A stretch of DNA of 64,000 nt from Sphingomonas sp. H160509 (GTDB lineage Bacteria; Pseudomonadota; Alphaproteobacteria; Sphingomonadales; Sphingomonadaceae). The notes beneath the pieces were generated by a model that saw only the letters and a list, made by a program, of their open reading frames with translations, made no database searches and was not told the origin of the DNA. A program made the position numbers and the translations under genes. This document shows, one piece after another, positions 29,917 through 33,941 of the stretch. The stretch is taken from NCBI RefSeq assembly GCF_024124765.2, contig NZ_JAMXSR020000002.1:705001-769000 (forward strand), given 5' to 3'. Within the stretch, counting starts at the first letter, position 1. Every line of letters begins with the position of its first letter.

Positions 29917-30651
29917 ATGATCGAACGTCTCGTCGCCATCATGGCCCGGTTGCGCGATCCCGTCGAAGGTTGCGACTGGGACCGTGTGCAGACCTGGTCG
30001 ACGATCGCACCCTACACGATCGAGGAAGCCTATGAGGTCGCCGACGCGATCGAACGGAACGATCCCGGGGACCTGAAGGACGAACTGGGCGACCTGCTGC
30101 TTCAGGTCGTGTTCCATAGCCGCATTGCCGAGGAAGCCGGCGCCTTCACGCTGGCCGACGTCGTGACCTCGATTGCCGACAAGATGGAACGGCGTCATCC
30201 GCATATATTCGGGGACGTGGAACAGTCGCCCGGATGGGAAGCGATCAAGGCGCAGGAGCGTTCGGCCAAATCGGATAGCAGCGCACTGGCGGGGGTCGCC
30301 CTTGGCCTTCCGGCACTGTCTCGGGCCGACAAGTTGCAGAAACGCGCAGGGCGTGTGGGCTTCGACTGGCCGGATGCGAGCGGGCCGCTCGCGAAAGTCC
30401 ACGAGGAAATCGAGGAGGTTCGCGAAGCTCCTCCCGAGAAGCTTGCAGAGGAAGTTGGCGACCTGCTGTTCGCGGTTACCAACTGGGCGCGGCATCTCGG
30501 AGTAGACGCGGAAAGCGCGTTACGCGATGGCAATCTGAAGTTCGAGGCGCGGTTCCGGGCGATCGAAGATCTCGGCGGCGATGCGTTCGCCGGCATGACC
30601 CTCGATCAGAAGGAGGAACTATGGCAGGTGGTCAAACGTCGCGGCGGGTGA
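29917..30651 (+). CDS. mazG: Nucleoside triphosphate pyrophosphohydrolase MazG
   Basis: 244 residues, intact. Two MazG domains: the first with TIEEAYEVADAIE and LKDELGDLLLQVVFHS, the second with VHEEIEEVREA and KLAEEVGDLLFAVTNWARH. These EExxE/ExxD helices bind Mg2+. It hydrolyses (d)NTPs to monophosphates plus pyrophosphate, for nucleotide-pool cleaning and ppGpp balance. Its 3' end overlaps the convergent hflX gene by 20 bases. Confidence 0.92.
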   Translation: MIERLVAIMARLRDPVEGCDWDRVQTWSTIAPYTIEEAYEVADAIERNDPGDLKDELGDLLLQVVFHSRIAEEAGAFTLADVVTSIADKMERRHPHIFGDVEQSPGWEAIKAQERSAKSDSSALAGVALGLPALSRADKLQKRAGRVGFDWPDASGPLAKVHEEIEEVREAPPEKLAEEVGDLLFAVTNWARHLGVDAESALRDGNLKFEARFRAIEDLGGDAFAGMTLDQKEELWQVVKRRGG

Positions 30652-31924
30652 ACCGGTCGTAATCCGCATCGGACAGTCGCACGTCATATGTCGTCTCGAG
30701 CTCGTCATCGACACTCCCGAACACTTCGCCATGCGCATGCAGCCAAGCAGCGCCCGCGCCATCGCTGGCATCGAGCGTGATCCGATAGCGCCGATGCGCC
30801 CCCGTCAGCTTTGCCGCGATCTGCTCGATCAGATGCGGCACCCCTTCCCCGCTTAGCGCCGATATCGCCACGACGTCGTCGCGCCGCGCCGCTTCGCCGG
30901 CAATCTCGTCGTGCGCGTCGGGGTCAAGCAAGTCGAGCTTGTTCCAGACCTCGAACCGCGGCGTATTATCGTCGACGCCGATCTCGGCCAGCACAGTCTC
31001 GACATCGGCACGCTGCGCCTCTGAGTCCGGGTGGGCGATATCACGGACATGGACCAGTAGATCGGCGGACACGACCTCTTCCAGAGTCGCTTTGAACGCC
31101 GCGACCAACTGGGTCGGCAGGTCAGAAACGAAGCCGACAGTGTCCGACAGGATCGCCTTGTCGAGCCCGGGCAGCTGAATTTGACGTAGCGTCGGATCTA
31201 GCGTTGCGAACAACAGATCCTCCGCCATCACATCGGCACCAGTCACGCGATTGAACAATGTCGATTTACCCGCATTGGTGTAGCCGACCAGCGCGATTAC
31301 CGGCCACGGCGCACGCTGGCGCCGTTCGCGGTGCAGTCCGCGCGTGCGGCTGACCTGCTCGAGCTCACGCTTCAATCGCGCCATCCGGTCGCGGATCAAA
31401 CGACGATCCGCTTCGATCTGGGTCTCGCCCGGACCGCCAAGGAAGCCGAAACCGCCGCGCTGACGTTCGAGATGCGTCCAACTCCGCACGAGCCGGCCAG
31501 CCTGGTAATCGAGATGCGCGAGTTCGACCTGCAAGCGCCCCTCGGCGGTCGCGGCACGTTCGCCGAAGATCTCTAGGATCAGTCCGGTGCGATCGATGAC
31601 CTTCACCTCGAGCGCTTTCTCCAGATTGCGCTGCTGGATCGGAGTCAGGCTCGCATCGAAAACGACGAGTCCCGCCTCTTCCATCCGAACTTGGGTGGCC
31701 AACAATTCGACCTGCCCGCTTCCGATCAGCGTTGCGGGCTTTGGCTGGCGGACGCGGTAAGCAATCCGGTCGACCACCTCGACACCGATCGCAGCAGCCA
31801 AGCCCGCGGTTTCCTCTAGCCGAGCGTCTACGTCGCGCGCGACGTCGCCCTGGTCGGGGAGAACGACGATCGCTCGTGTTCCACGGGTGAACTCGTCCCG
31901 ATCGCGTTCGAAACCACTACTCAA
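30632..31924 (-). CDS. hflX: Ribosome-associated GTPase HflX
   Basis: 430 residues, intact. N-terminal HflX domain with [12 protein letters not shown] and [14 protein letters not shown], then the linker [15 protein letters not shown]. The GTPase domain has G1 [13 protein letters not shown]3 [10 protein letters not shown] and G4 NKLDLLD. HflX splits or rescues stalled ribosomes, mainly under stress. It starts with TTG overlapping the hfq stop (TTGA), so it is translated from the hfq transcript; its 3' end overlaps mazG from the other strand. Confidence 0.93.
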
Positions 31925-32463
31925 TCGTCATCGTCCGTTTCATCCGTGTCAGTGGGCTCTTCGGCAAGGTTCAGCGGGCGCGCCGGCTGGATCGTCGAGA
32001 CAGCGTGCTTGTAGACGAGTTGTGCCATGCCTTCGCGCTGGAGCAGCATGCAAAACAGATCGAAGCCTGCGATCTGGCCCTGCAGCATGACGCCATTGAT
32101 CAGGAACATCGTCACGCTGTCTTCGGATTTGCGCACGGCGTTGAGGAAGATATCCTGCAAAAGCGGGTGCTTCTTCTGGTTTTCTCCCACCGCATCGACG
32201 ATCGCCGACACGTCCATGGGCCCAGCAGGCATGATCGTCGAGATCGCATGCTTGTAGATCAGTTGCGACTGGCCATCGCGGCGCAGCAGGACGGAAAAAT
32301 TATCGAACCATGTAACGATGCCCTGGAGCTTTACGCCCTTGACGAGGAACATGGTGACCGGCGTCTTAGAGCGCCGGAGTGCGTTCAGGAACAGATCCTG
32401 AAGCGAGCCTGGTTTATCGGCCAATGGGATAACTCTTTGTTTTTGGCGGGACTTTGCCCGCAA
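31921..32463 (-). CDS. hfq: Double-domain Hfq RNA chaperone
   Basis: 180 residues with two Sm-fold Hfq domains in one chain. Domain 1 (about 20-80) has [29 protein letters not shown] and YKHAIST. Domain 2 (about 101-161) has [30 protein letters not shown] and YKHAVST. Both keep YKH (proximal RNA site) and the N-terminal Gln. Domain 2 has Met where E. coli K31 is and Leu where Q41 is; domain 1 keeps the Lys and has Asn for Q41. The C-terminus is acidic (DTDETDDDD). The real start is probably the TTG at 32424 ([10 protein letters not shown]), preceded by AAAGAG. Tandem Hfq is known in Zymomonas and relatives. It lies between ntrX and hflX. Confidence 0.93.
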
Positions 32464-32564: not shown

Positions 32565-33941
32565 CTATTCCTCGCGGGTTTCGGTGATGCCGAGCAGCTT
32601 CAATTTTCGATGAAGCGCGGAACGCTCCATGCCGATGAAGCTGGCCGTCCGTGAGATATTTCCCGAGAAACGTCGGATCTGCACCCGGAGATATTCCCGC
32701 TCGAACGTCTCGCGCGCTTCCCGCAAAGGCGAGCCCATGATCGCGGTCGATCCGGCTGATCCGATATCGCCCTGGTCCCCGAGAACTTCGGCCGGCAACA
32801 GGTCGAGATCGATCCGCCCGATCCGGTTTCCCGGCGCCAGAATGATCGTACGCTCGACGACATTGCGCAACTGCCGGACATTTCCCGGCCAATCGTAGGA
32901 TTGCAACGCAACCATCGCGTCCGGCGCAATTTCCGGCGTCGGCACGCGGCGCTCGGATGCGTAGTGCGCGATGAAATGCTGGACCAGCGCGGGGATGTCC
33001 TCGCGACGATCGGACAGCGGCGGGATCATCACCGGCACGACGTTGAGCCGGTAATACAGATCCTCGCGGAACCGTCCTTCGGCGATTTCGAACACCAGGT
33101 CGCGGGCGGTTGCCGAGACGACGCGGACGTCGACCTTGACGACCCGCGTACCGCCTACTCGCGTAAAGCTCTGGTCGGTGAGTGCGCGGAGGATGCGCGC
33201 CTGAGTCGCGATCGGCATGTCGGCGATCTCGTCGAGGAACAGCGTGCCACCATGCGCCTGTTCGAACAGACCGGGACGGACGAGATCGCCCGCTTCCTCG
33301 ACGCCGAACAGCTCCTCGTCCATGCGCTCGGGCGTCATCCGCGCGGCACTGACGATGATGAACGGCGCGTCGGTCCTCAGGCTCCAGCCGTGTAGCAGGC
33401 GGGCGGCGACTTCCTTGCCGACCCCCGCCGCGCCCATGATAAGGACCCGGCTGCCGGTTGCCGCGACCCGCTTCAAGGTCGCGCGAACGCCGTTGATCGA
33501 GCCCGAACTGCCGGTCAGGTCGGTTTCGCGGCCGACCGTAGCCCGCAGTGTCGCCACCTCGCGACGGAGCCGTTCGGTCTCGGTCGCGCGAGCGACCATC
33601 AACAGCAGTCGTTCGGCCTCGAACGGCTTTTCGATAAAATCGGACGCCCCGCGGCGGATTGCGGCGACGGCGGTATCCAAATTGCCGTGCCCCGAAATCA
33701 CCAGCACCGGGATCGACGGATCGCGCCGCTTGATCTCGTCGAGCAGTTCGAGGCCGTCGAGACGCGAACCTTGCAGCCACACATCGAGCAGCACCAGTGA
33801 AGGACGCCGCGCTGCGATTGCTTCCAAGGCGGAATCGCTGTCGCCAGCGTCGCGCGTCTCATAGCCTTCGTCCTCCAGGACGCCGGCCACGAGTTCGCGA
33901 ATGTCACGTTCGTCGTCCACGACGAGAATATCGAGCGCCAT
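32565..33941 (-). CDS. ntrX: Sigma-54-type response regulator NtrX
   Basis: 458 residues, intact. Receiver domain with phospho-acceptor Asp in LVLLDVWLQG, then an AAA+ domain with GAAGVGKEVAARLL and [15 protein letters not shown] Fis-type HTH ends the protein (NISRTASFIGMERSALHRKLKLLG). The GAFTGA loop of true sigma-54 activators is replaced (ELFGVEEAGDLVRPGLFEQA), as is common in alphaproteobacterial NtrX, so it likely acts without sigma-54 contact. Partner kinase is NtrY, four bases upstream. Confidence 0.92.
   Translation of the reverse strand: MALDILVVDDERDIRELVAGVLEDEGYETRDAGDSDSALEAIAARRPSLVLLDVWLQGSRLDGLELLDEIKRRDPSIPVLVISGHGNLDTAVAAIRRGASDFIEKPFEAERLLLMVARATETERLRREVATLRATVGRETDLTGSSGSINGVRATLKRVAATGSRVLIMGAAGVGKEVAARLLHGWSLRTDAPFIIVSAARMTPERMDEELFGVEEAGDLVRPGLFEQAHGGTLFLDEIADMPIATQARILRALTDQSFTRVGGTRVVKVDVRVVSATARDLVFEIAEGRFREDLYYRLNVVPVMIPPLSDRREDIPALVQHFIAHYASERRVPTPEIAPDAMVALQSYDWPGNVRQLRNVVERTIILAPGNRIGRIDLDLLPAEVLGDQGDIGSAGSTAIMGSPLREARETFEREYLRVQIRRFSGNISRTASFIGMERSALHRKLKLLGITETREE

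Follow-up and report, generated by a model that had tools for sequence, protein, structure and literature searches.

The Hfq encoded in our window, by which we mean the whole 64-kb stretch of DNA that was analysed, carries two Sm domains in one chain, and the two halves differ in a set manner that nearly all relatives examined share: domain 1 has the residues of single-domain Hfq on all three faces, except for N28K, and domain 2 is reduced on each of them. These residue differences are real and have long been kept, so that the two halves are likely to be functionally unequal. The two-domain architecture was already known; what our analysis adds is the long-kept, family-wide asymmetry of the halves.

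The available text of Yang et al. 2010 (PMC2877685) describes two Sm-like domains in the Hfq of Zymomonas and of six other Sphingomonadales species, in agreement with the initial annotation, which had mentioned the double Hfq of Zymomonas, and it already asks whether three chains form a ring; a residue-by-residue comparison of the domains and the placing of the fusion on a tree are added here. A word search of the accessible parts of two later Zymomonas papers (PMC9797736, PMC7546472) returned nothing on two domains or a ring. Our literature search, outside which subscription journals mostly fell, found no comparison of the two domains or of their consistency.

The gene, its domains and its neighbours

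The open reading frame at 31921-32463 on the minus strand, as read from the sequence, encodes 180 aa, and the Pfam profile PF17209 matches two stretches of it with a total of 194.5 bits (gathering score 27), which bears out the initial annotation of two Sm domains in one chain. The window protein scores 289.3 bits against the NCBIfam equivalog NF010691 (176 positions; cut-off 270), aligning with model positions 9-174; this model, also known as PRK14091, presumably covers the Zymomonas protein, and the window Hfq has the same two-domain architecture as Zymomonas mobilis and its relatives. Sun and colleagues (2002) are said to have possibly noted a double Hfq in Novosphingobium. The gene span first given, 31921-32463, was right at the stop end and probably too long at the other: the most likely start is the TTG at 32424-32422, because a start codon lies 6-8 residues N-terminal of the domain match in 80 of 80 named relatives and an AAAGAG sits at 32438-32433, 8 bases ahead of this TTG. 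The gene would then occupy 31921..32424 (-) and encode 167 aa, and 32425-32463 is probably untranslated. The host, a soil bacterium, is a Sphingomonas near S. faeni; the five closest named relatives are from Sphingomonas strains, with 97-99% identity over the best segment. A profile search of the contigs of the same genome, whose assembly is 80.57% complete, found no second hfq.

Domain 1 (32215..32403, minus strand, like the features that follow) is a complete Hfq Sm domain and domain 2 (31972..32160) a reduced one, both by PF17209 match and per-residue table. A 21-residue linker (32161..32223) joins them, its first residues overlapping the longer PF17209 match of domain 1, and an acidic C-terminal tail (31924..31980) follows the domain 2 match. 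The linker has 21 residues in 86 of 140 two-domain Hfq proteins and 19-21 in 124. Using residue numbers that we take to be those of E. coli Hfq, the codons of the residues most discussed below are, in domain 1, 32340-32338 (K28), 32331-32329 (K31), 32301-32299 (N41) and 32232-32230 (M63), and, in domain 2, 32097-32095 (N28), 32088-32086 (M31), 32058-32056 (L41) and 31989-31987 (Q63).

A single-chain predicted model reached a mean pLDDT of 87.6 and a pTM of 0.82, which gives each domain a well-defined predicted position; of five models, two reach a mean pLDDT of 87 and the others 74, 59 and 50. The linker in the model forms one short helix (residues 72-78). The domains may pack side by side as ring neighbours do. 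A fold search returned Caulobacter Hfq as first match, with Z 10.0 and an rmsd of 0.9 across 71 domain 1 residues; the 50 fold matches listed mostly concern domain 1, with two (5uk7, 8bvh) aligning domain 2 and one unrelated fold (6jie) spanning 4-138. By sequence, too, no solved structure is closer to domain 1 than Caulobacter crescentus Hfq (6gwk; 112 bits), but that protein has a single domain, and its ring is made of six equal subunits with six tails. Escherichia coli Hfq (1hk9, 3gib) shares the Sm fold, and most of its base-pocket residues persist in both domains; it is a single-domain protein with a long tail, and arginines occupy rim positions 16, 17 and 19.

Downstream of hfq lies the GTPase gene hflX (30632..31924, minus strand), whose TTG start runs into the hfq stop (TTGA, 31921-31924), an overlap that may couple their translation. 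Many named relatives also have TTGA where hfq ends; that hflX starts there is an observation from the window only. Upstream lie a gene for a sigma-54 type response regulator (32565..33941, minus strand; profile match), which we presume to be ntrX from its position beside an NtrY-like kinase, and that kinase itself (NtrY_N match). No Rfam family reached its gathering score within the window. Between 30400 and 34000 there was one promoter-like site, with 0.9 in shuffles, and there were five terminator-like sites, with 2.8 in shuffles (sd 1.4). Autoregulation by way of A-R-N repeats was considered and set aside: the longest A-R-N run before the start measured 2.53 in two-domain genes vs 1.73 in shuffles (113 of the 140, those with the start near the domain) and 2.96 vs 2.48 in 49 single-domain genes; a Shine-Dalgarno sequence alone would raise either figure.

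Differences between the two halves

We compared 131 regular two-domain proteins with 49 single-domain Hfq of the same order. The two-domain set holds 140 proteins from at least 47 genera, the remaining nine being eroded proteins of one genus (g12); three duplicates (L001, L002, L019) and a fragment (L125) were left out of the residue and linker counts. Position 28 is N in all 49 single-domain proteins, K in domain 1 of all 131 and N in domain 2 of all 131, and position 31 is K in the single-domain proteins (49/49) and in domain 1 (131/131) and M in domain 2 (131/131). At position 63, M is found in 49/49 single-domain proteins and in 127/131 of the first domains, and Q in every one of the 131 second domains. 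Position 41 is N in 47/49 and 128/131, respectively, and L in domain 2 of 123/131, and W38, kept in domain 1, is A or G in 122/131 second domains. When the set was thinned to 51 proteins, about one per genus, positions 28 and 31 and domain 2 Q63 held without exception, with N41 in 48 and L41 in 43. The proteins being related, these counts describe early-fixed states that were kept and not independent events.

The initial annotation had named K31 in domain 1 with M31 in domain 2, N41 with L41, and a YKH motif in both domains. All of these are present in the window, and each of the 131 regular proteins likewise has YKH in its two halves; M31 and L41, recurring as often as they do, are not chance, and N41 is simply the ordinary state. 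Aligning the relatives domain by domain shows the half-to-half differences to be real and wider than first claimed, since K28 in domain 1, Q63 in domain 2 and a weaker basic rim in domain 2 are added to them. One element is not supported: the binding residues had been described as split, each half keeping part of them, and we find instead that domain 2 loses on all three faces what domain 1 keeps. We likewise rejected complementary faces, with one half distal and the other proximal; as domain 2 is reduced in distal, proximal and rim residues, there is no division of the faces between the two domains.

Much is nevertheless common to both halves. Across the 131 proteins neither domain varies at F25, G29, V30, L32, Q33, Q52, T61, Q8, Y55, K56 or H57, and F42 is kept in 131 (domain 1) and 130 (domain 2). 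If our assignment of conserved residues to base pockets is right, domain 2 may still bind bases, because base-pocket residues are invariant in both domains.

For the rim we used positions 16, 17, 19, the insert and 47, mapped by us from the residues that PMC6561178 names in Caulobacter. All five are basic in 49/49 single-domain proteins and in domain 1 of 131/131; domain 2 has a mean net count of 1.63, and in 32/131 proteins the count does not rise above zero. The window residues are RRKRR in domain 1 vs RKEQR in domain 2, and the losses in domain 2 vary from protein to protein. Core charge is +3.9 in single-domain Hfq and +4.9 in domain 1; for domain 2 it is negative, at -0.9. A symmetric ring of the single-domain type, with K31 and a basic rim everywhere, is not what we find, given M31 in 131/131 second domains and their weakened rim. 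At least three D/E occur among the last 8 residues of 118/130 regular two-domain proteins (a count without L117, whose frame lacks a near stop, and L094, whose gene runs off its contig), and single-domain Hfq has the acidic tail too, both outside the family (34/38) and inside it (10/10). This is the type of acidic tail and basic rim seen in Caulobacter Hfq, where, according to the portion of PMC6561178 available, the acidic tip of the tail binds positive rim residues on the adjacent protomer. For E. coli Hfq, the accessible text of PMC4337610 has the rim contacting RNA through N13, R16, R17 and F39, and that of PMC12262471 reports RNA chimeras nearly abolished by R16A and cut almost fourfold by K31A, with a mild effect of K31A on regulation; since that effect is mild, M31 alone may change little.

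The two halves also evolve at different rates. When 48 proteins are compared pairwise, domain 1 shows a mean p-distance of 0.119 and domain 2 one of 0.244, the value for domain 2 being the larger in 1058/1128 pairs; median dN/dS is 0.102 and 0.208, respectively (4138 pairs with dS 0.1-1.2), both well under 1, with domain 2 higher in 3485; and mean agreement with the single-domain consensus is 0.94 for domain 1 vs 0.76 for domain 2. At the sequence level this shows purifying selection on both halves, weaker on domain 2.

How the ring may be built

We think it probable, though by no means assured, that the window Hfq forms a ring of three chains in which strong and weak subunits alternate; the chain is compatible with such a ring, which the initial annotation had proposed. 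Three chains would close one six-domain ring, domain 1 next to domain 2 throughout. The domain 1 subunits would provide a strong distal site (K28, K31), an intact proximal pocket and a full basic rim that drives annealing; the domain 2 subunits would hold the ring together and have weaker base pockets, lacking K31 and usually N41, and a weaker basic rim. The acidic tail, one per chain at the domain 2 end, would dock on the neighbouring domain 1 rim and limit annealing, as it does between Caulobacter protomers. A three-chain ring would have three tails, because the tail ends domain 2 and the linker takes its place in domain 1. The outcome would be three strong annealing patches, and strong distal sites that repeat per six bases rather than per three. 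Domain 1 thus reads as the working half and domain 2 as the ring-building half with residual pockets. Against a dead domain 2 subunit, many of its base-contact residues are invariant, R47 is present in 131/131 and R16 in 103/131 (N13 is found in 71/131). A further point against this reading is that nine proteins of one genus have R31 in domain 1 and a variable position 31 in domain 2.

A three-chain ring might also have become asymmetric without any new function, its redundant sites having allowed domain 2 to drift to a floor. Domain 2 is indeed less like the single-domain consensus (0.76 vs 0.94), has the higher dN/dS in 3485/4138 pairs and has lost rim residues that differ among proteins. 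However, drift alone should scatter the states at positions 31 and 63 of domain 2 and 28 of domain 1 too, and M31, Q63 and domain 1 K28 are identical in 131/131 while domain 2 changes elsewhere; this counts against drift, which we consider rather unlikely. Less likely still is a distal face that is six-fold in practice, K28 of domain 1 lying near position 31 of the next domain 2 and supplying the lysine there. The gain of K28 and the loss of K31 do occur together in 131/131, two lysines per chain being kept at 28 and 31, and the distal pocket residues are invariant in both domains; but in simulations of P. aeruginosa Hfq residue 28 touches the N base by its backbone (PMC8121710), a contact that does not bear on the role of the side chain. 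Both of these accounts keep the three-chain ring, and the likelihoods given here do not sum to one.

Most improbable in our judgement is a double ring of six chains, with the first domains in one ring and the second domains in the other. The interface strands are conserved within each domain type, as homotypic rings would also need, but a linker of 19-21 residues (124/140) and the defined placement in the model allow the two domains to be neighbours, and position 63, in strand 5, is not the same in the two domains, a difference that a contact between unlike domains could require; none of this is decisive.

Returning to the alternating three-chain ring, its lopsided design is kept by nearly all relatives examined and hints at an Hfq ring that naturally has three strong sites and not six. 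Tentatively, and with confidence well short of even, we extend this to a large part of the family, whose sRNA network would depend on an Hfq that is three-fold by necessity, a covalent alternating ring in which strong distal sites, annealing patches and regulatory tails each number three. Such an Hfq would prefer strong A-R-N triplets spaced by six bases rather than three, and each ring would hold fewer RNAs. Hfq is usually regarded as six equal subunits, in which one mutation alters all six sites, so that the number of sites required at the same time is difficult to study. By the sequence evidence, half of the sites of the fused chain are weakened, and in a fixed order; if the ring were confirmed, three sites could be altered at once by mutating one domain, which would open to study the number of distal sites, of annealing patches and of tails that such an sRNA chaperone requires.

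Distribution, origin and variants

In an evenly sampled draw of 396 genomes of the order, 313 belong to the family of the window, taken from its named relatives to be Sphingomonadaceae; 300 of these have two Hfq matches and 13 have one. Among the other 83 genomes, 77 have a match (76 have one, and G001 one plus a partial second) and six have none. Fusion of the paired matches was confirmed on 59 loci, at least one for each of the 47 genera of the family with paired matches, and on 80 named loci. In a draw of 385 genomes of the class, at least five pass the NF010691 cut-off, all of this family among the matches listed, which fits the known occurrence of the architecture in Sphingomonadales. A draw of 398 genomes of the phylum (19 of the family), searched with a single-domain model, gave at most one match in 372 of the 379 genomes outside the family and two in the other seven; the three draws have genomes partly in common. 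We found no fused Hfq outside the family: these seven genomes carry their matches at separate places, and the eight non-family genomes in which two matches are whole or nearly so have them at separate sites. Such a cell also has two different Hfq domains, but in these eight genomes the genes are far apart and unfused. G701 has two Hfq fragments at contig ends, and G761 has one match with PF17209.

The partial second Hfq of G001 (contig C82, 5520-5633) lies at a contig end and is a fragment or a contamination, and this genome was counted by its single-domain locus only. Two named loci, titled Bacillus sp. 2B10 and Microvirga sp. SRT01 (L095, L075), have a Sphingomonas-type two-domain hfq with the same neighbours and are probably mislabelled or contaminated.

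In a tree of HflX and NtrX (92 taxa; FastTree local supports), all 67 two-domain taxa used form one group (0.999) with zero single-domain taxa within it; the 14 outgroup taxa chosen are not one clade and do not fix the root, and the split of 67 vs 25 holds unless the root falls among these 67 taxa. A second tree, built from the domain sequences, has the 51 first domains as a complete group (0.972) and likewise the 51 second domains (1.0). Because each domain type is one complete group, the copies diverged once, before these genera radiated. The trees point to one fusion and zero reversals. Secondary loss of domain 2 was considered for the 13 single-domain genomes of the family and rejected: the 11 examined (G245 and G247 are not among them) have N28 and sit outside the two-domain group. 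The fusion would be a one-time, tree-placed case of a homomeric ring turned heteromeric. Eukaryotic Sm rings consist of paralogous subunits; here the likeness lies inside one chain.

Nine of the g12 loci (L126-L134), from genomes of 2.1-2.6 Mb, are eroded in both domains, and three others (L135-L137) are regular. The eroded proteins keep K28 in domain 1, with R31 in 9/9; in domain 2 they have F for Y55 in 8/9 and a shortened helix 1, and 0/9 have the acidic tail. Their dN/dS (6 pairs; medians 0.29 and 0.36) is still below 1.

A further variant is an N-terminal arm with a conserved TLSARP-like motif soon after the Met, often followed by a Pro/Ala/Lys-rich spacer, at 26 loci among L140-L181. These are 26 of the 27 members of one clade (support 1.0; L184 is without it), and the 114 two-domain proteins without the arm, L184 included, account for all those outside that clade, among them the window Hfq; a loose form of the pattern also matches 2/49 single-domain frames. 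The motif is possibly a docking motif.
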